Part shown: positions 8,821-27,023 of the stretch, piece after piece
Position numbering within the stretch: the first letter of the stretch is position 1
Layout of the letters: each line of letters starts with the position of its first letter
Assembly: GCA_020852355.1 (NCBI GenBank)
Contig: JADZBA010000010.1
Location: forward strand, 1 to 34,494
Source of the DNA: Alphaproteobacteria bacterium
GTDB lineage: Bacteria > Pseudomonadota > Alphaproteobacteria > ATCC43930 > Allostellaceae
Reading direction: 5' to 3'
DNA length: 34,494 nucleotides
Notes under the pieces: generated by a model
Database searches by the model: none
The model's input: the letters and a program-made list of their open reading frames with translations, nothing else
What the model was told of the DNA's origin: nothing
Program-made: the position numbers and the translations under genes

Positions 8821-8848
8821 TTGACAGGATTCCCGCGGATTCTAGGGT
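8821..8848 (+). promoter_or_regulatory. Candidate sigma-70 promoter of the pagL-like gene
   Basis: A perfect -35 box TTGACA (8821-8826) is followed after 16 bases by TAGGGT (8843-8848), a weaker -10 box. A transcript starting near 8855 would have a leader of about 35 bases before the ATG at 8892. The spacer and start region are occupied by GGATTC repeats, suggesting control by a DNA-binding protein. Confidence 0.5.
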
Positions 8849-8870
8849 GGATTCGTACCGAATCCGATTC
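8827..8870 (+). repeat. GGATTC repeat cluster with perfect palindrome (candidate operator)
   Basis: GGATTC occurs at 8827-8832, 8837-8842 and 8849-8854. The last copy forms a perfect palindrome GGATTCG-TAC-CGAATCC (8849-8865), and another GATTC follows at 8866-8870. The first two copies are ten bases apart, one helical turn. The cluster covers the spacer and presumed start of the pagL-like promoter, a placement suited to a repressor or response regulator. The binding protein is unknown. Confidence 0.5.
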
Positions 8871-8891
8871 CCGAGTCGGAGTGACGCGACG

Positions 8892-9437
8892 ATGCGCATC
8901 AAGCTGTCCCTGCTCGCCGCAGCGCTCGCGGCCATGCTGCCCCTGTCGGCGCCGGCCGAGGCCCAGCTCGTCTCCGAGCTGAAGGTGGGAGGCGCCTACC
9001 ACGACCCGCCGATCTTCGGCCCGCGCAACGAGCGCAAGGGCTTCGACATCAATGGCGAGGTCCTGTTCACCTCGCCCGGCTTCCTGTCCTTCCTGTGGTC
9101 GCCGCGACCGCATGTCGGGCTGCAGGTGAACACCGCCGGCCTGACCAACCAGGCCTATGCCGGCCTGACCTGGCAGTACGACTTCGACGCCGGTCCGTTC
9201 ATCGCCGGCAGCCTCGGCCTCGCCGTCCACGACGGCGAGCTCGACAGCGACCGCACCGACCGCAAGTCGCTCGGCGGGCGCGTGCTGTTCCGCGAATCGA
9301 TCGAGGTCGGCTTCCGCTTCGGCGAGGAGCGCCGGCATTCCCTCTCGCTGATGCTCTCGCACGTCTCGAACGCCGGCATCTACGAGCGCAACGAGGGCAT
9401 GGACACGATCGCCGCGCGCTACGGCCTGCGCTTCTGA
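8892..9437 (+). CDS. PagL-like lipid A 3-O-deacylase / acyloxyacyl hydrolase family
   Basis: PagL-type enzymes are small outer-membrane barrels that remove an acyl chain from lipid A. The 181-residue product has a clean signal peptide (residues 1-24, ending AEA before Q25), short alternating beta strands and a terminal Phe. The family's active-site region is LSHVSNAGIYERNEGMD, with His157 and Ser159 in H-x-S order. At the position of the third triad residue (Glu140 in Pseudomonas PagL, as I recall it) there is Asp171, a conservative change. An upstream in-frame ATG-like codon at 8847 would precede the signal peptide and overlap the promoter, so the ATG at 8892 with CGGAG upstream is preferred. 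A short GC hairpin (9449-9464) follows the stop. Confidence 0.78.
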   Translation: MRIKLSLLAAALAAMLPLSAPAEAQLVSELKVGGAYHDPPIFGPRNERKGFDINGEVLFTSPGFLSFLWSPRPHVGLQVNTAGLTNQAYAGLTWQYDFDAGPFIAGSLGLAVHDGELDSDRTDRKSLGGRVLFRESIEVGFRFGEERRHSLSLMLSHVSNAGIYERNEGMDTIAARYGLRF

Positions 9438-9484: not shown

Positions 9485-10210
9485 GTGCGGCGCATCGCCA
9501 TGTGGTCGGGCCCGCGCAACCTCTCGACCGCGCTGCTGCGCGCCTGGGAGAACCGGCGCGACACCTGGGTCGTCGATGAGCCGCTCTACGGCTTCTACCT
9601 CCAGGCGACGGGCAAGGATCATCCCGGCCGCGACGCGGTGATCGCCGCCCAGCCGACCGACTGGCGCATGGTCGCCGAGCGCCTGTCGACCGAACGCTGC
9701 GGCGACCGCGCCGTATTCTATCAGAAGCACATGGCCCACCATCTGCTGCCGCAGGTCGGCCGCGACTGGATCGATGCGCTCGACAACTGCTTCCTGATCC
9801 GCGACCCGCGTGCCGTCGTCGCGTCCTACGTGAAGACGCGCGAGACGGTCGGGCTCGACGATCTCGGCTACGAGGTCCAGGCGGAGCTGTTCGCGCGCGA
9901 GCGGCGGCGCACCGGGCGCGTGCCGCCGGTGATCGACGCCGCCGACGTGCTGGCCGACCCGCGCGCCGTCCTGACCGCCCTGTGCCGGCGGCTCGACCTG
10001 CCGTTCGACGAGGGCATGCTGTCGTGGCCGGCGGGGCGCCGCGACAGCGACGGCGTCTGGGCGCCGCACTGGTACGAGGCGGTCTGGCGGTCGACCGGGT
10101 TCGCCCGGCCGCGGGCCGAGGCGGCGACGCTGCCCGCTGCGCTGGGACCCCTGGCGGCGGCGGCCGAGCCGTACTATCGCCGTCTCGCAGAACACCGCAT
10201 CACGGGGTGA
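9485..10210 (+). CDS. Sulfotransferase-fold (P-loop) protein, partner of adjacent aminotransferase-like gene
   Basis: The 241-residue product has the two nucleotide-binding signatures of the PAPS sulfotransferase fold. These are a 5'-phosphosulfate-type loop (SGPRNLST, residues 8-15) and a 3'-phosphate-type segment (IRDPRAVVAS, 105-114). Other blocks are VVDEPLYGFYLQATG (29-43) and GVWAPHWYEAVWRSTGF near the end. These blocks resemble the N-terminal half of plant branched-chain-aminotransferase-like fusion proteins, as I recall them. The start is uncertain: the first ATG (9500) would cut into the first beta strand, so the GTG at 9485 is chosen, without a clear ribosome site. The stop is two bases before the next ATG, so coupled translation is likely. 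Sulfotransferase activity is not demonstrated for this branch. Confidence 0.75.
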   Translation: MRRIAMWSGPRNLSTALLRAWENRRDTWVVDEPLYGFYLQATGKDHPGRDAVIAAQPTDWRMVAERLSTERCGDRAVFYQKHMAHHLLPQVGRDWIDALDNCFLIRDPRAVVASYVKTRETVGLDDLGYEVQAELFARERRRTGRVPPVIDAADVLADPRAVLTALCRRLDLPFDEGMLSWPAGRRDSDGVWAPHWYEAVWRSTGFARPRAEAATLPAALGPLAAAAEPYYRRLAEHRITG

Positions 10211-10212
10211 CC

Positions 10213-11121
10213 ATGGTCCAGGGCTCGCAGGGCTTCGTCGAGGATCCGCGCAACGACCGCGTGCTGCTCTACCTCAACGGCGACCTCGTGCCGCGCGCCG
10301 AGGCCAGGGTCTCGGTGTTCGATGCGGGCTTCGTCCTGGGCGACGGCGTGTGGGAAGGTTTCCGCCTCGTCGGCGGCCGCGTCGCCTTCCTGGAGAAGCA
10401 TCTCGACCGGCTCTGGGAGGGGGCGCGCGCGATCGATCTCGACATCGGCATGGACCGGGCGGCGATGGCGGCCGCTCTCGATCGGACCGTCCGCGCCAAC
10501 GCCATGACCGACGGCGTGCACATCCGCCTGATGGTCACCCGCGGCCTCAAGCGCACGCCCAACCAGGACCCGCGCTACACCGTCGGGCCGGCGACCGTGG
10601 TGATCGTGGCGGAGTGGAAGGAGCCGAACCCGGAGGTCAAGCGCAAGGGCCTGCGCCTGTTCACCTCGACCATCCGCACGACGCCGCCCGACATGTTCGA
10701 CATGCGGCTCAACTCGCACAGCCGGCTGCCGCTCATCACCGCCCTCATCCAGGCGCTCAAGGCGGGCGCCGACGAGGCCCTGATGCTCGATCCGCACGGC
10801 TTCGTCGCGAGCTGCAACGCCACCAACTTCTTCATCGTCCGCAAGGGCGCGCTGTGGACGTCGACCGGCCGGTACTCGTTCAACGGCATCACCCGCGGCA
10901 ACGTGGTCGACCTCGCACGCGCCGACGGCATCCCCGTCGAGCTGCGCGACTTCACGCTGGCCGAGGTCTACGGCGCCGACGAGGCGTTCGCCACGGGTAC
11001 CTTCGGCGGCGTGACCCCGATCGCCGCCGTCGACGGGCGCCCGATCGGCGGCCCCGGCGGTCCGCTGACGCAGCGCCTCGACGCCCTCTACCGGGCGCTG
11101 CTGGCCGCCGAGGCCGGCTGA
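10213..11121 (+). CDS. Class IV aminotransferase-fold protein lacking the PLP lysine
   Basis: The 302-residue product has the whole branched-chain/D-amino acid aminotransferase layout: LNGDLVPRAEARVSVFDAGFVLGDGVWEG (21-49), ALMLDPHGFVASCNATNFFIV (189-209), GITRGNV (225-231) and the late ATGTFGGVTPI motif. Yet the residue aligning with the cofactor-binding lysine is Arg165, and no lysine exists between residues 145 and 183. The glutamate that contacts the PLP pyridine nitrogen aligns with Ser200. Canonical PLP catalysis is therefore doubtful, although the fold is otherwise complete. It lies two bases after the sulfotransferase-like gene; a GTG at 10207 overlapping that stop is an alternative start. 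The product name 'branched-chain aminotransferase' should not be transferred to it. Confidence 0.85.
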   Translation: MVQGSQGFVEDPRNDRVLLYLNGDLVPRAEARVSVFDAGFVLGDGVWEGFRLVGGRVAFLEKHLDRLWEGARAIDLDIGMDRAAMAAALDRTVRANAMTDGVHIRLMVTRGLKRTPNQDPRYTVGPATVVIVAEWKEPNPEVKRKGLRLFTSTIRTTPPDMFDMRLNSHSRLPLITALIQALKAGADEALMLDPHGFVASCNATNFFIVRKGALWTSTGRYSFNGITRGNVVDLARADGIPVELRDFTLAEVYGADEAFATGTFGGVTPIAAVDGRPIGGPGGPLTQRLDALYRALLAAEAG

Positions 11122-12474: not shown

Positions 12475-13989
12475 GTGCATGAAGGTCTGCCGCCGGACGG
12501 CGAGCTGCCGCCCGGCCTCGTGAGCCCGGCGCAGGACGGTCTCCTGCGCGTCCTCTACAGCCCCGACGACGAGGTCCTGGCCGAGTTCCGCCGCTGGGAG
12601 GCCGGCGTCGCGCTCGACGACCTCGACAGCGGCTGCTACCGCCTCTACCCCGCGCTCTATCACCGCCTCCGCACCCTGGCGCCCGATCATCCGTTTCTCG
12701 GCCGCATGAAGGGGCTCTTCCGTCGCGCCCTCTACCGCAACCAGCTGCTGTTTCGTTGGGCCCGCGAGGTGCTGGGGCGGCTGCGCGCGGCCCGCATCGA
12801 CTGCATCGTGCTCAAGGGCGCGGCGCTGGTCCGCTCGATCGGCTTCTCCGCCGGCTTCCGGCCGATGGCCGACGTCGACCTGCTGGTGCGGCCGCGCGAC
12901 GCGCGACGGGCGATGGAGGTCGCCGACGTCCGCTTCCGGACGGTCCTCGACGACGTGGCGGCGACGGAAGCGCATCTCCATCTCCGCCACGGCCTGTCGG
13001 TCATGGACGAGAGGGAGTTCGAGATCGACCTGCACTGGCGGCTGGCCGGCGCATGGGCCGCCGGCGAGGATCCCGACGCACCGTTCTGGGAGACGGCGGA
13101 GGCGATCGACCTGCAGGGCGAGCCGGCCCTGACGCTGGGGCCGACCGAGCTGCTCTACCATGTGCTGGTGCATGGTCTCGCCTGGAACGCCGTTCCGGTC
13201 GTGCGTTGGGTCTCCGACGCGCTCGGGATCCTGGAGGCGGAAGGCGGGCGGGTCGACTGGGGTCGCCTCGTGCGCCTCGCCGCGCGCTACCGCCAACGGC
13301 CGGCCGTGCGCGTGGCCCTGTCCCACCTCGTGCACCGGTTCGGCGCGCCGGTGCCGCCCGCCGTGCTGGCCGCCCTGGCGCCGCCCTATGCCGCCTCCGA
13401 GCTCGCCGGCTTCGCGGTCCGCACCCGTCCCTGGGCCAGCCCGATCGCGCTCGAGGAGGCGATGGTGCTCACCGCGGCCCGCCTTCCCGAGCTGGAGCGC
13501 CGGCTGCCCGGCCGCCGGCGCCTCGTCTACCTGCCCGACCGCATGGCGACGCCACGGGCCATGGCATGGATACGCTCGCTGGGCGCCGACCATCTCTGCG
13601 AGTTCGCCGCGACCGCGCCGCTGATGGCCGAGGCGCGGCGGCGCATCGTGGAAAGCGCGCAATGGCAGCGCCGGTTCGACGGCGCCGAGGGGGCGCTGTT
13701 CCGCCTCGATCTGTTCCACGACGTCCCGGGCGGCGGCCGCACGCCGGTCTATGCCCGGGTCGGCCGGACCGAGGACGGCAAGTGGGCGATCCGCACGTTC
13801 GCGACCTCGCTCGGCGACTGGCCGCGGGGAGCGGTCGTCTTGAGGCTCGACGCAACGATGGGTTTTCTGCAAACGTCGATTCTCTCGCTGGAGAACGCCA
13901 TGCCGCAACCGTTCCTGCCCACCTGGCCCGGTTTCGTCGCCGCCGCCGTGGCGCCGACGCTGCCCGCGCCGCCGCCGATGGTGCGCTGA
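12475..13989 (+). CDS. Nucleotidyltransferase family protein (NTP_transf_5-like), copy 1
   Basis: The 504-residue protein belongs to the uncharacterised nucleotidyltransferase family seen in peptide and polysaccharide clusters. Key residues are the KG pair at 114-115 (IVLKGAALVRS), the two metal-binding aspartates 133 and 135 (MADVDLLV), and the third acidic position in EIDLHW (Asp185, His187, Trp188). All are present, so it should be active. What it modifies is unknown. The C-terminal 200 residues carry an RRLVYLPDRMATPRAMAWIRSLG segment shared with copy 2. The start is a GTG (12475) 52 bases after the protease stop; a GA-rich tract (12439-12447) lies upstream and no ATG is available. It is followed almost directly by its paralogue. 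Confidence 0.78.
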   Translation: MHEGLPPDGELPPGLVSPAQDGLLRVLYSPDDEVLAEFRRWEAGVALDDLDSGCYRLYPALYHRLRTLAPDHPFLGRMKGLFRRALYRNQLLFRWAREVLGRLRAARIDCIVLKGAALVRSIGFSAGFRPMADVDLLVRPRDARRAMEVADVRFRTVLDDVAATEAHLHLRHGLSVMDEREFEIDLHWRLAGAWAAGEDPDAPFWETAEAIDLQGEPALTLGPTELLYHVLVHGLAWNAVPVVRWVSDALGILEAEGGRVDWGRLVRLAARYRQRPAVRVALSHLVHRFGAPVPPAVLAALAPPYAASELAGFAVRTRPWASPIALEEAMVLTAARLPELERRLPGRRRLVYLPDRMATPRAMAWIRSLGADHLCEFAATAPLMAEARRRIVESAQWQRRFDGAEGALFRLDLFHDVPGGGRTPVYARVGRTEDGKWAIRTFATSLGDWPRGAVVLRLDATMGFLQTSILSLENAMPQPFLPTWPGFVAAAVAPTLPAPPPMVR

Positions 13990-13999
13990 GTTGGAGGCG

Positions 14000-15523
14000 A
14001 TGACGACCTTGGACGGCGCAGCCCTCCTGCCACCCGAAGGCGAGCTGCCGCCCGGCATGATCACGCCGGACCAGGAAGAGCTGCTCCGTATCCTCTACAG
14101 CCCCGACGAGATCGCCGCCCCGCTGTTCGAGCGGTGGCAGGCCCGCGTCGACATGACCGACCTCGACGACGGCTGCTACCGGCTCTACCCGTATCTCTAC
14201 CGCCGCATCCGCGGCTTCGCGCCCGATCATCCGTTCCTCGGCCGGCTGAAAGGCCTGTTCCGCCGCTCGCTCTATCGCAACAACATGCTCTTCCAGTGGG
14301 CGCGCGAGGTGCTGGAGCGCCTGCGCGCCGCGGAGATCGACTGCATCGTGCTGAAGGGCGCGGCGCTGGTGCGCTCGATCGGCCTGTCGGCCGGCTTCCG
14401 GCCGATGGCCGACGTCGACCTGCTGGTGCGGCCGGGCGACGCGCGGCGGGCGATGGAGGTGGCCGATCCGCTGTTCCGCAGGATCCTCGACGATCCGGTC
14501 GGCACCATGGCGCGCATCCAGCTCCGCCATGGCGCCTCGATCATGGACGACCGGCGCCTGGAGATCGACATGCATTGGCGGATCGGCGACGTCTGGGCGC
14601 CGGGCGACGATCCCGATGCACCCTTCTGGGAGACCGCGCAGCCGGTCGAGCTGTCGGGCGCCACGGCGCTCGCCCTGGCGCCGACCGAGCTGCTCTACCA
14701 CGTGGTCGTCCACGGTCTCTCCTGGAACGCCCTCCCGACGGTCCGCTGGATCTCCGACGCCCTCGACATCATGGCGGCCGAGGGCGATCTCCTCGACTGG
14801 CATCGCCTGGTCGCGCTCGCGGAGCGCTACCACCGGCGCGCGACCGTGCGCGTCGCCCTCGCCTATGTGCGCCACCGCTTCGCCGGCCCCGTGCCGGACT
14901 GGGTGCTGGCGGCCCTGGGGCCGCCGTACGATGCGCGCGAGGCCGCCGACTTCCGCCAGGAGATGCTGCCCTGGAAGACGCCCGTCGACATGGCGGACGT
15001 CCGTCTGCTCGCGCCGGACTGGCTCGCGCGCATGCGCGAGCGGGTGCCCGGGCGGCGCTGCATCGTCTTCCTGCCAGACCGCATGGCGACGCCCGACGTA
15101 ATGGGCTGGATCGGCTCCATCGGTGCCGATCATATCTGCGAGTTCCCGGCCGACGGCGTCGTGATGAAGGAGGTCCGCCGCCGCATCGTGGAATCCGAGC
15201 AGTGGCGGCGGGGCTTCTACGGCCGACCCGGTGCGCTGCTGCGGATCGACCCCGGCGATGCCCTGCCGGCCGGGCTCTCCGGCCCGGTCTATGTGCGCGT
15301 CTGGCGCAAGGACGAGCAGTGGCGCATCCGCGCTTTCGTCTCCAGCCTGCGGGACTGGCCGGTCGGCGCTCCCGTGTTGCGCCTCGACTCGGTGGTCGGC
15401 TTCCGCAAGCCGAGCCTGCTGGGCCGGGAGGATGCGGTGCCCACGCCGTGCCTGCCGGCCTGGCCCGGCTTCCCCGAAGGCGCGCTCACGGCGACGCCGG
15501 CCGGGGTCCTGCCGTCGCGGTGA
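14000..15523 (+). CDS. Nucleotidyltransferase family protein (NTP_transf_5-like), copy 2
   Basis: This is a tandem paralogue of the preceding gene, alignable along its whole 507 residues. It has KG at 119-120, aspartates 138 and 140 in MADVDLLV, and Asp190/His192 in EIDMHW, so the catalytic set is intact. Divergence is concentrated in the middle helices and the C-terminus, where copy 2 has GFRKPSLLGREDAVPTPCLPAWPGF. The ATG at 14000 is preferred by comparison with copy 1. A GGAGG at 13993-13997 is too close to serve it well, and a TTG at 13991 is an alternative. It begins 10 bases after copy 1 stops. Its 3' end overlaps the convergent DUF169 gene by 38 bases. Confidence 0.78.
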   Translation: MTTLDGAALLPPEGELPPGMITPDQEELLRILYSPDEIAAPLFERWQARVDMTDLDDGCYRLYPYLYRRIRGFAPDHPFLGRLKGLFRRSLYRNNMLFQWAREVLERLRAAEIDCIVLKGAALVRSIGLSAGFRPMADVDLLVRPGDARRAMEVADPLFRRILDDPVGTMARIQLRHGASIMDDRRLEIDMHWRIGDVWAPGDDPDAPFWETAQPVELSGATALALAPTELLYHVVVHGLSWNALPTVRWISDALDIMAAEGDLLDWHRLVALAERYHRRATVRVALAYVRHRFAGPVPDWVLAALGPPYDAREAADFRQEMLPWKTPVDMADVRLLAPDWLARMRERVPGRRCIVFLPDRMATPDVMGWIGSIGADHICEFPADGVVMKEVRRRIVESEQWRRGFYGRPGALLRIDPGDALPAGLSGPVYVRVWRKDEQWRIRAFVSSLRDWPVGAPVLRLDSVVGFRKPSLLGREDAVPTPCLPAWPGFPEGALTATPAGVLPSR

Positions 15524-16349
15524 CCGCGCCGGCGGCGCGCTTGCCGCCTTCGCCGTAGCTGACGTCCATGCCCTCGGCCGGGTCGGCATTGGCGCCGTAG
15601 GGCGGGATCGGGTAGCGCAGGCCGACCTTGGCCAGCGCCTCCAGCCCCTCGACGCCGCGGCGGAATTCGTCGGGCGGGCAGGCGACCAGCATCTCGTCGT
15701 CGGCGACGCCGCCGTAGCGCCGCTCGGCGTAGCAGGGGATGGAGATCGAGGTCTTGCGCGTCTTCAAGGCGCGGCCCCAGGAATCGGCGCAGGCGCTCTC
15801 GCCGGTGATGCTCATGTCGTAGCGGCGATAGCGGGCGTGCTGGAGGCCGTTGACGAAGAGGATGGTCTGCCCCGGCGTGCCGTAGAAGAGGCAGATGTCG
15901 GGCGGGTCGAGGCGCGCCGCGCGCAGCGGCGAAGCGACGACGCCGACATGGCCGGCGGCCGGCGCGCGCGGCATCGTCGCCTGGTGCAGCCGGGCGTTCT
16001 CCTGGTCGGCGAACCACACGCCGGCCAGCTTGCGCCCGGACAGGTAGTCCTCGCCCGGCGCGTTGAGGCCGATGACGCCGCCGCAGTTGCTCCATGGCCG
16101 GACATTCTCGTGCGCGATGCCGATGGTGAGACCGGCGACGCGCGCCTGGGTGACGAGCTGGCAGGTGGTGAAGCGCCGCCCCGCGCGCGGCCGCCGCAGG
16201 CCGGGCACGGCGGCGAACGCCGCCTCGTCGTCGAAGAGACGCATGCCGATCGGCAGCGTGCGCAGGCGCAGCAACCCTTCGAGTCGCTGCGCCAGATCCT
16301 TCAGCTCGGCCGCCGTCGGCGCCGGCCGCGCGTTCTTCTTTCTGGGCAT
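15486..16349 (-). CDS. DUF169 family protein
   Basis: The 287-residue protein matches the DUF169 family, which is widespread and without an assigned biochemical role. Typical features are the N-terminal RTLPIGMRLFDDE block, FTTCQLVTQAR, a NCGG motif, PDICLFYGTPGQ and the ITGESACADSWGRAL region, with an IPCYAERRYGG block afterwards. Several conserved cysteines could bind a cofactor or metal, but this is inference. GGAGG lies six bases before the ATG at 16349, which fixes the start. It converges on and overlaps the second nucleotidyltransferase by 38 bases, and diverges from the SDR gene across 89 bases. Confidence 0.82.
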   Translation of the reverse strand: MPRKKNARPAPTAAELKDLAQRLEGLLRLRTLPIGMRLFDDEAAFAAVPGLRRPRAGRRFTTCQLVTQARVAGLTIGIAHENVRPWSNCGGVIGLNAPGEDYLSGRKLAGVWFADQENARLHQATMPRAPAAGHVGVVASPLRAARLDPPDICLFYGTPGQTILFVNGLQHARYRRYDMSITGESACADSWGRALKTRKTSISIPCYAERRYGGVADDEMLVACPPDEFRRGVEGLEALAKVGLRYPIPPYGANADPAEGMDVSYGEGGKRAAGAVTATAGPRPASP

Positions 16350-16387
16350 CGTCGTCCTCCGTCGCTGGCCGCGGATATTGCTCCCGG

Positions 16388-16419
16388 CGCGACGGCCGTG
16401 CGACGACAAAACCGTCGCG
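16388..16419. repeat. Inverted repeat in the DUF169/SDR divergent promoter region
   Basis: CGCGACGG (16388-16395) and its exact complement CCGTCGCG (16412-16419) are separated by 16 bases, placing the arms about two helical turns apart. It lies 20 bases before the SDR ATG. It could be an operator or a leader hairpin; in GC-rich DNA an 8-bp repeat can arise by chance. Confidence 0.35.
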
Positions 16420-16438
16420 ACCGCAGGAGGGGAGCACA

Positions 16439-17194
16439 ATGGCCGACAGTCCCGGAACGCTCGTCGTCACCGGCGCCGGCCGCGGCATCGGCGCCGCCGT
16501 CGCCCGCGCCGCCGCCGCGGCCGGCTGGCGCGTCGCCGTGCACTACGGGACGTCGCGCACGGCGGCCGAGGCGGTGGTCGCGGAGATCGCCGCCGCGGGC
16601 GGGACCGCCGCCGCCTTCCCGGCGGAGATCGCCGATGCGGCAGCGGTCGCCGACCTGTTCGCCGCCGTCGACCGCAGGCTCGGCCCCGTCGCCGGCCTCG
16701 TCAACAATGCCGGCATCATCGGCGCTCGGGCGCCGATCGCCGCGCTCGCCCCGGGGCTGGTCGAGCGCGTGCTCGCCGTCAACGTCGCCGGCACGATGTA
16801 CGCGACGGCGGAGGCGGTGCGGCGCATGGCGCGGAGCCGCGGCGGTGCCGGCGGCGCGATCGTCAACGTTTCCTCGCTGGTCTCGCTCACCGGCGGCCTG
16901 CCGCAGGAGGTGCACTATGCCGCCAGCAAGGGCGCGGTCGACAGCCTGACGCTGGGCCTCGCGCGCGAGCTGGCGGCGGACGGCATCCGCGTCAACGCGG
17001 TGCGGCCGGGCATCATCGCGACCGACATCCACGAGGTCCATGGCGGGCGCGCCTTCGTCGAGGGCTTCGCGGCCAACATCCCGGCCGGCCGCGCGGGCAC
17101 GGCGGAGGAGGTCGCGGCGACGGTGCTGTGGCTGCTCTCCGAAGCGGCGGCCTACGTCACGGGCGCGCTCCTCAACGTGGCCGGCGGGCGGTAG
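16439..17194 (+). CDS. Short-chain dehydrogenase/reductase (classical SDR, FabG-like)
   Basis: This NAD(P)-dependent oxidoreductase has 251 residues, the standard classical-SDR length. It has the cofactor motif TGAGRGIG (11-18), NNAG (89-92), catalytic Ser at 145/146, and Tyr160-x3-Lys164 (HYAASKGA). The active site is complete. A Thr-Asp pair (IIATDI) follows the PG motif as usual. HYGTSR after beta strand 2 (no acidic residue) suggests an NADP preference, which is inference. AGGAGGGG lies six bases before the ATG. The stop is only three bases from the convergent stop of the potC-like gene. FabG itself usually sits with fatty acid genes, so the substrate here is unknown. Confidence 0.88.
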   Translation: MADSPGTLVVTGAGRGIGAAVARAAAAAGWRVAVHYGTSRTAAEAVVAEIAAAGGTAAAFPAEIADAAAVADLFAAVDRRLGPVAGLVNNAGIIGARAPIAALAPGLVERVLAVNVAGTMYATAEAVRRMARSRGGAGGAIVNVSSLVSLTGGLPQEVHYAASKGAVDSLTLGLARELAADGIRVNAVRPGIIATDIHEVHGGRAFVEGFAANIPAGRAGTAEEVAATVLWLLSEAAAYVTGALLNVAGGR

Positions 17195-26016: not shown

Positions 26017-26373
26017 TCAGCGCTGCAGCACGATCGGCTTGCCGTGCGGGGTGGCGCGGACGGCGGCGTCCCAGGCGTCGCGCCTGGCGTGCAGCTCGGC
26101 GTCGCTGACCGCGCCCTTGGCCTTCACCAGCCGCTCCAGCGCGGCCAGCCAGTGGCGATAGTAGGTGTCGCCCCGGTCGGGATCGCCGGCCGCCTGGGCC
26201 CGGGTGATCTCCGCGGCCAGGGTCTCCGCCCATTCCGTCCAGGTGAAGAGGCCGCCCTGGTGCAGGCGCACGGCCATGGCGAAGGCCGCGGCCTCCCACG
26301 GCTCGCGGAAGACCGGGCCGTCGGCGTCGCGCGGGATCGCCGGCAGCCGGTCGAGATCGACGGCGGTCGTCAT
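26017..26373 (-). CDS. Nitrile hydratase accessory (activator) protein
   Basis: The 118-residue protein is homologous to the nitrile hydratase beta-subunit N-terminus and matches the small accessory proteins that help load cobalt into the alpha subunit. Recognisable parts are GPVFREPWEAAAFAMAVRLHQGGLFTWTEWAETLAAEI and DTYYRHWLAALERLVKAKG, matching the beta subunit's WE..AFA and YY.HWL motifs. The ATG at 26373 overlaps the beta-subunit stop as ATGA. It is the last gene of the operon, in the alpha-beta-activator order known for cobalt enzymes of pseudomonads. Confidence 0.85.
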   Translation of the reverse strand: MTTAVDLDRLPAIPRDADGPVFREPWEAAAFAMAVRLHQGGLFTWTEWAETLAAEITRAQAAGDPDRGDTYYRHWLAALERLVKAKGAVSDAELHARRDAWDAAVRATPHGKPIVLQR

Positions 26374-27023
26374 GCCGCTTCCAGGTAGTCGTCCCAGAGG
26401 TCGACCAGGACGCGGTCGGCGGCGGGCGCGTCGGGGCCCCACAGCGTCTGCGCCGTGAAGCGCACGGCGTAGCAGCGCTGCGGCGCCTCGCCGGCGCCGG
26501 TCGCATGGCTGTCGGGAAAGACGAAGACGCCGTGGTCGCGCTCGATCACGCCGACATGGCCGCGGACGTAGCGCGGCATGCGGGTGTGGCCGCGCGGATG
26601 CAGGTTGCGCACGCGGACCGCGTCGCCCGGCCGGTAGCGCGGCGGTGCATTGGCCGGCCGCCGGGCGAGGCGGCGCTGCGTCAGCAGCGTCGGCACGCGC
26701 GACGCCGGCACGGCCGGCACCGGCCCGGGCCCCGCGGCCTCGCCGCTCTCCAGCTCGGCCGCCGACACCAGCCCGCGCTCGACCAGCAGGCGGCGCAGGC
26801 CGCGCAGCCAGTGCTCGTAGTAGGTGGAATTCAGATAGATCTGCGGGTCGGTGTCCTCGCGCGCGAAGCGCGCCATGTCGATGTTCCAGCGGCCGAGCAT
26901 GCCGCAGGCCAGCGTCACGGCGAAGGCGCGTCGCTCCCAGGGATGATGGAAGCGGGGCTCGTTCGGATCGGGAGCGATCGCGCCGAAGCCGTGCATGCCG
27001 CCGAGGTCGTGGGCGCCGTCCAT
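26370..27023 (-). CDS. nthB: Nitrile hydratase beta subunit
   Basis: This is the structural beta subunit of nitrile hydratase, which hydrates nitriles to amides in the cytoplasm. It has 217 residues, the normal length. It begins with the signature MDGAHDLGGMHGFG, followed by EPRFHHPWERRAFAVTL and YYEHWLRGLRRLL. The C-terminal SH3-like domain (about 130-217) contains RYRPGDAVRVRN, PRYVRGHVGVIERDHGVFVFPDSHA and the final WDDYLE. A Pro/Ala-rich linker of about 15 residues joins the two halves. The ATG lies four bases after the alpha stop and the gene ends in an ATGA overlap with the accessory gene. Confidence 0.93.
   Translation of the reverse strand: MDGAHDLGGMHGFGAIAPDPNEPRFHHPWERRAFAVTLACGMLGRWNIDMARFAREDTDPQIYLNSTYYEHWLRGLRRLLVERGLVSAAELESGEAAGPGPVPAVPASRVPTLLTQRRLARRPANAPPRYRPGDAVRVRNLHPRGHTRMPRYVRGHVGVIERDHGVFVFPDSHATGAGEAPQRCYAVRFTAQTLWGPDAPAADRVLVDLWDDYLEAA

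Follow-up and report, generated by a model that had tools for sequence, protein, structure and literature searches.

The class IV aminotransferase family, which textbooks define by its PLP-binding lysine, holds a large, old and selected branch in which this lysine is missing. One member, an "aminotransferase-like protein" of Variovorax paradoxus, has already been crystallised, as the wild type (PDB 7z79, 2022) and as "mutant N174K" (9j32, 2025), so the lysine-less type as such was already known. In the open literature (subscription journals lay outside the search), we found no paper on 7z79/9j32 or on plant homologues, and no description of the function of the lysine-less protein, of its pairing with a sulfotransferase, of a branch with histidine at the lysine site or of the invariant Lys113 reported below. 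Here we describe a lysine-less gene and its neighbor in a stretch of 34,494 nucleotides of alphaproteobacterial DNA, referred to as the window, and compare them with the known systems.

The open reading frame is intact, and its product of 302 residues matched Pfam Aminotran_4 (PF01063) with an E value of 5.5e-42 (144.6 bits against a gathering cut-off of 28.5). It also matched 18 NCBIfam class IV models, each with a score under the curated cut-off, and none of the IlvE, DAAT and PabC equivalog cut-offs was reached. The AF2 model of the protein has a mean pLDDT of 89.7. Compared with two Stella homologues, the gene shows a dN/dS of about 0.19-0.27 and is under purifying selection; this ratio and the conservation of the sites described below rule out decay. 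Ten other proteins encoded in the same genome match Aminotran_4, and because those that were aligned carry the lysine, the lysine-less protein is an extra, specialised paralogue. Eleven matches in total (L081-L088, own genome) are many for one bacterium. Elsewhere in the window lie tandem NTP_transf_5 paralogues, a DUF169 gene and a gene for a nitrile hydratase beta subunit, near which, and on its strand, the text of the open reading frames suggests genes for an alpha subunit and an accessory protein (Table 1).

Table 1. Coordinates of the lysine-less gene, its signature codons and other features of the window.
Feature	Position	Strand	Evidence or remark
PagL-type lipid A 3-O-deacylase gene	8847..9434	+	directly upstream of the sulfotransferase gene
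Sulfotransfer_5-family (PAPS-sulfotransferase-like) gene	9500..10210	+	PF19798 E 5.7e-61, 206 bits vs cut-off 23.2
Lysine-less class IV aminotransferase-like protein, Asn type, 302 aa	10213..11121	+	Aminotran_4; 7z79 TM 0.94
Trp47 codon, lysine-less clade signature	10351..10353	+	Phe/Tyr in Lys type
His103 codon, replaces substrate-carboxylate Tyr of branched-chain aminotransferases	10519..10521	+	His 124/124; Tyr 10/14 Lys type
Lys113 codon	10549..10551	+	124/124 lysine-less vs 0/14 Lys type
Asn167 codon, catalytic-lysine position	10711..10713	+	alignments; = N174 of 7z79
His169 and Ser170 codons, invariant in Asn type	10717..10722	+	116/116
Ser200 codon, pyridine-nitrogen Glu position	10810..10812	+	Ser/Thr 116/116 Asn type
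NTP_transf_5 gene (PF14907, "uncharacterised nucleotidyltransferase"), first of tandem	12475..13986	+	few bases from the second
NTP_transf_5 gene (PF14907), second of tandem	13991..15520	+
DUF169 (COG2043) gene	15489..16439	-
Nitrile hydratase beta subunit gene	26373..27023	-	N and C domains

Residues 163-172 read DMRLNSHSRL, and there is no lysine between K145 and K183, just as a first-pass annotation made from the sequence alone had stated; the flanking motifs that it listed (LMLDPHGFV, NATNFF, GITR and GTFGGVTP) are present as well. That annotation mistook Arg165 for the residue at the lysine site. Alignments with lysine-bearing paralogues from the same genome (BLAST and MAFFT) and with solved structures place the PLP-lysine column two residues later, at Asn167. 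The residue corresponds to N174 of the Variovorax protein, and since 9j32 carries a substitution there, its depositors identified the same position. A lysine at the cofactor site had been proposed as something that structural comparison could reveal; the alignments place none there, and the nearest solved structure, 7z79 (TM 0.94), has Asn. Scoring residues 165 and 200 across the family, as had been suggested, was informative for the second residue alone. At position 165, K, R and T all occur across the family, and judging by the alignment the residue carries no information on the lysine site. At position 200, where Ser200 does align with the glutamate that contacts the pyridine nitrogen, all 116 Asn-type sequences have Ser or Thr, and Glu is found in 8/8 His-type and 14/14 lysine-bearing sequences. 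The Schiff-base lysine and the pyridine-nitrogen glutamate of branched-chain and D-amino acid aminotransferases are both absent from the protein. All 116 non-identical Asn-type sequences have Asn167, a recurrence that, on alignment evidence, is far beyond chance.

A search of 84,980 species genomes yielded a best 80 relatives from Alphaproteobacteria, Gammaproteobacteria, Actinomycetota, Chloroflexota, Balneolota, Bacteroidota, Verrucomicrobiota and others, every one with Asn at position 167. In other phyla searched, we found a second branch of 8 sequences, which have His at 167 and keep Glu at 200. In a maximum-likelihood tree built without the motif columns, the Asn and His branches each had a support of 99 and were joined in one lysine-less clade (SH-aLRT 97) apart from the lysine-bearing sequences, with the exact root among the Lys types unsure because of long branches to distant paralogues from the own genome. 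The lysine-less clade is present in at least five phyla. Within it, the group of 7z79 is marked by an LNxHS motif, Asn at the lysine site, Ser/Thr at the glutamate site and W47, H103, K113 and N202, all of which the protein encoded in the window possesses. A His/Asn swap of positions 167 and 169 between the two branches was considered and rejected, as sequences of the His branch have Asn, Ala or Cys at the second of these positions.

Loss of the two textbook residues is accompanied by a set of new ones. Trp47, His103, Lys113, Glu134 and Asn202 occur without exception in the 124 lysine-less proteins (116 of the Asn and 8 of the His type) and are essentially missing from 14 lysine-bearing sequences, where position 47 is Phe or Tyr, 103 mostly Tyr (10/14), 113 Gly, Asp, Ala or Pro, and 134 mostly Thr. 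The 5'-phosphate cup of Arg66, Gly225, Thr227 and Thr261 (Arg, G-I-T, T) is present in the protein and retained across the lysine-less proteins save for single substitutions. The claim that both cofactor contacts are lost was therefore right for the lysine and the glutamate; with the cup kept, a loss of PLP binding is unsupported. The invariant new residues, the kept cup and the low dN/dS (about 0.19-0.27) imply that the protein has been maintained and has acquired a new site, with no sign of decay. The earlier proposal that the protein is maintained in a changed role is thus well supported, by these residues, by purifying selection, by the single clade spanning at least five phyla and by a near-obligate partner. 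What the first-pass annotation missed was Lys113 and the adjacent upstream sulfotransferase gene, the strongest clue.

The stop codon of the sulfotransferase gene (10208-10210) lies two bases before the ATG of the lysine-less gene. Its product keeps the P-loop and the R...S 3'-phosphate motif, with S5, R8, S11, T12, R103 and S111 invariant, as are Glu29, Lys78 and His83. The model (pLDDT 94.8) has a fold closest to PAPS sulfotransferases, CurM first, and together with the motifs it suggests a putative PAPS-dependent-type sulfotransferase. The own genome holds a single copy of it. The PagL-type gene directly upstream did not show up as a conserved neighbor of the pair. We also rejected a conserved larger operon: across phyla, the sulfotransferase alone recurs.

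Of 81 loci, 54 have a sulfotransferase homologue adjoining the lysine-less gene, and the two genes share a strand without exception. The lysine-less gene comes first in most Asn-type loci; the order is the opposite, with the sulfotransferase gene leading, in His-type loci and in Stella/Zavarzinia. Among 200 Pseudomonadota genomes, the same 11 hold both genes, which are adjacent in 9 and apart in 2. In 148 genomes from the phylum of a Rhodothermales genome, the lysine-less protein occurs in 17, and the sulfotransferase in 16 of those and in no others. The lysine-less protein is encoded in 13 of 198 Actinomycetota genomes, and a strong sulfotransferase match is found in 12 of those and nowhere else, at a cut-off (E < 1e-45) chosen after two well-separated score groups were visible. 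Pooling the three phylum samples (546 genomes) gives 39 genomes with both proteins, 2 with the lysine-less protein only, none with the sulfotransferase only and 505 with neither (Fisher test, 1e-57, uncorrected for relatedness). No sulfotransferase was found beside lysine-bearing genes in 13 loci with short flanks, and the loci examined contained no bacterial fusion of the two proteins. At one locus (L155, G369:C4:367635-368354), the sulfotransferase match beside an Asn-type gene has one in-frame TAA, which may mean that the copy is broken or that the assembly contains an error. Ten Actinomycetota genomes (L202-L211) contain a weak Sulfotransfer_5 paralogue only (E > 1e-31, 30-34% identity) and no lysine-less aminotransferase, which implies that the wider sulfotransferase family has other roles.

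A different context is confined to one Asn-type sub-branch, which includes Azospirillum, Phreatobacter, Agrobacterium and Thioclava, among others, and into which 7z79 falls by sequence. Here the lysine-less gene sits next to genes for a GntR regulator and a polar amino acid ABC importer, together with a ProC-like or MmgE/PrpD gene and, in many cases, a ClC channel gene. The sulfotransferase was absent from the genomes of all 9 importer loci whose genomes were searched, showing that the lysine-less protein can work without it. In the importer branch, the lysine-less protein therefore has its own function and can be fed by import rather than by a sulfotransferase. The ClC-type channel (L089, L091, L096 and others), which follows the lysine-less gene or the importer, has a C-terminal extension and an unusual GMEAG/GMEAA motif; it was also inspected as a possible fluoride-type ClC, which might hint at a halogenated substrate.

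On balance, we consider it probable that the locus encodes a two-protein module, in which a rebuilt, lysine-independent fold-type IV protein and a PAPS-dependent-type sulfotransferase act on the same small metabolite. The PLP lysine would have been lost once, in the ancestor of the lysine-less clade, after which the active site was rebuilt. The protein would still be an enzyme, sharing a small, amino-acid-like metabolite with the sulfotransferase, and would form no internal aldimine at the classical site; in the transporter-linked branch, the substrate would be imported instead. The kept phosphate cup would hold non-covalent PLP/PMP or a different anionic group, perhaps the sulfate carried by the sulfotransferase product, while the new residues (W47, H103, K113, E134 and N202) would carry out the chemistry. 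The cofactor arrangement may take one of three forms: PLP/PMP bound without a covalent link, a histidine acting as the base; PLP attached to Lys113; or a PLP-free site whose cup binds sulfate or another anion. The kept cup also fits ordinary PLP binding, and in this respect it counts against the two-protein module. We regard as unlikely a so far undescribed pathway that depends on sulfation, where the cup now holds the sulfated product of the adjacent sulfotransferase and the lysine, perhaps PLP as well, has been given up. It is similarly doubtful that Lys113, His103 and Trp47 together with the Asn167/His169 pair form the new catalytic center that such a pathway would use.

Other readings have to be weighed against the module. 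A lysine-free PMP/PLP enzyme with a histidine base is possible, though we would not expect it. ColD is a dehydratase with histidine in place of lysine, and here the base would be His167 in one branch and His169 in the other. The kept cup favors PMP or PLP, the His branch has its histidine exactly at the lysine site and keeps Glu200, and the Asn branch has the invariant His169 and, facing the ring nitrogen, Ser/Thr, which is the contact that fold-type II PLP enzymes use. However, the His branch has no histidine at position 169, and the base would therefore have to move.

Somewhat less probable is that the protein is a pseudoenzyme, which would partner the sulfotransferase in a binding or regulatory capacity and have no catalytic activity. 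The absence of both textbook catalytic residues and the strict pairing are what one would predict from such a role, but the clustered invariant polar residues (W47, H103, K113, E134, N202, N167, H169 and S170) resemble an active site, and the importer-linked branch keeps the protein where there is no sulfotransferase to partner.

It is more doubtful still that the lysine was relocated, such that Lys113 forms the Schiff base in place of Lys167 and the protein remains a PLP enzyme. In D-amino acid transaminase, the loop after T-R-G bears substrate-binding residues and lines the active site, in this fold that of the partner subunit, and Lys113 sits in this loop. The strict presence of Lys113 in lysine-less and its absence from lysine-bearing sequences fit a relocation, as does the gain of K113 and the loss of K167 on one tree branch. 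Against it, the loop is modelled less confidently (block pLDDT 78), an invariant lysine may merely bind a carboxylate or sulfate, and the Asn branch has lost the glutamate too. The paired loss and gain make a relocation of the catalytic lysine testable on the existing crystal structure. Finally, despite the overall family resemblance, an ordinary transaminase whose lysine is missing through misalignment or sequencing error is refuted for practical purposes by the same residue in 116 different sequences and by the crystallographers' choice of that Asn for mutation in 9j32.

Returning to the two-protein module, the pairing suggests that many bacteria possess a two-protein pathway yet to be characterised, and the strict link to the sulfotransferase provides a direct handle on function, with two genes and one metabolite. 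The name "aminotransferase class IV", which databases routinely give to the lysine-less branch, is probably misleading. The Arabidopsis proteins At3g05190 and At5g27410 (branched-chain aminotransferase-like), which we take to be eukaryotic sulfotransferase-aminotransferase fusions with the His-type motif, would, if this is true, extend the module to plants. A paper that covers plant sulfotransferases (PMC12506393) is silent on an aminotransferase link.

Among the known systems, the sulfotransferase resembles the PAPS sulfotransferases CurM ST (4gbm) and tyrosylprotein sulfotransferase in its P-loop, its R...S 3'-phosphate motif and its fold, but it shares less than 20% identity with the nearest solved sulfotransferases. 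Bacillus D-amino acid transaminase and aminodeoxychorismate lyase (PabC) are fold-type IV relatives of the lysine-less protein that differ from it in the lysine, the glutamate and the carboxylate-binding set; it scored 131.5 against a cut-off of 277 and 130 against 308 with their respective curated models. The best lysine-bearing matches are archaeal and bacterial branched-chain aminotransferases (5mqz, 5cm0, 5e25; PRK08320, 233 bits against a cut-off of 363), which share the fold, the phosphate cup and R105, but have the Lys and the Glu, Phe/Tyr47 and Tyr103 and lack Lys113. Closest of all is the Variovorax protein (7z79 and its N174K mutant 9j32; 66% identity, TM 0.94), which, like the protein described here, belongs to the Asn branch and has Asn at the lysine site and Ser at the glutamate site, and whose closest branch, unlike this locus, adjoins an amino acid ABC importer and has no sulfotransferase.
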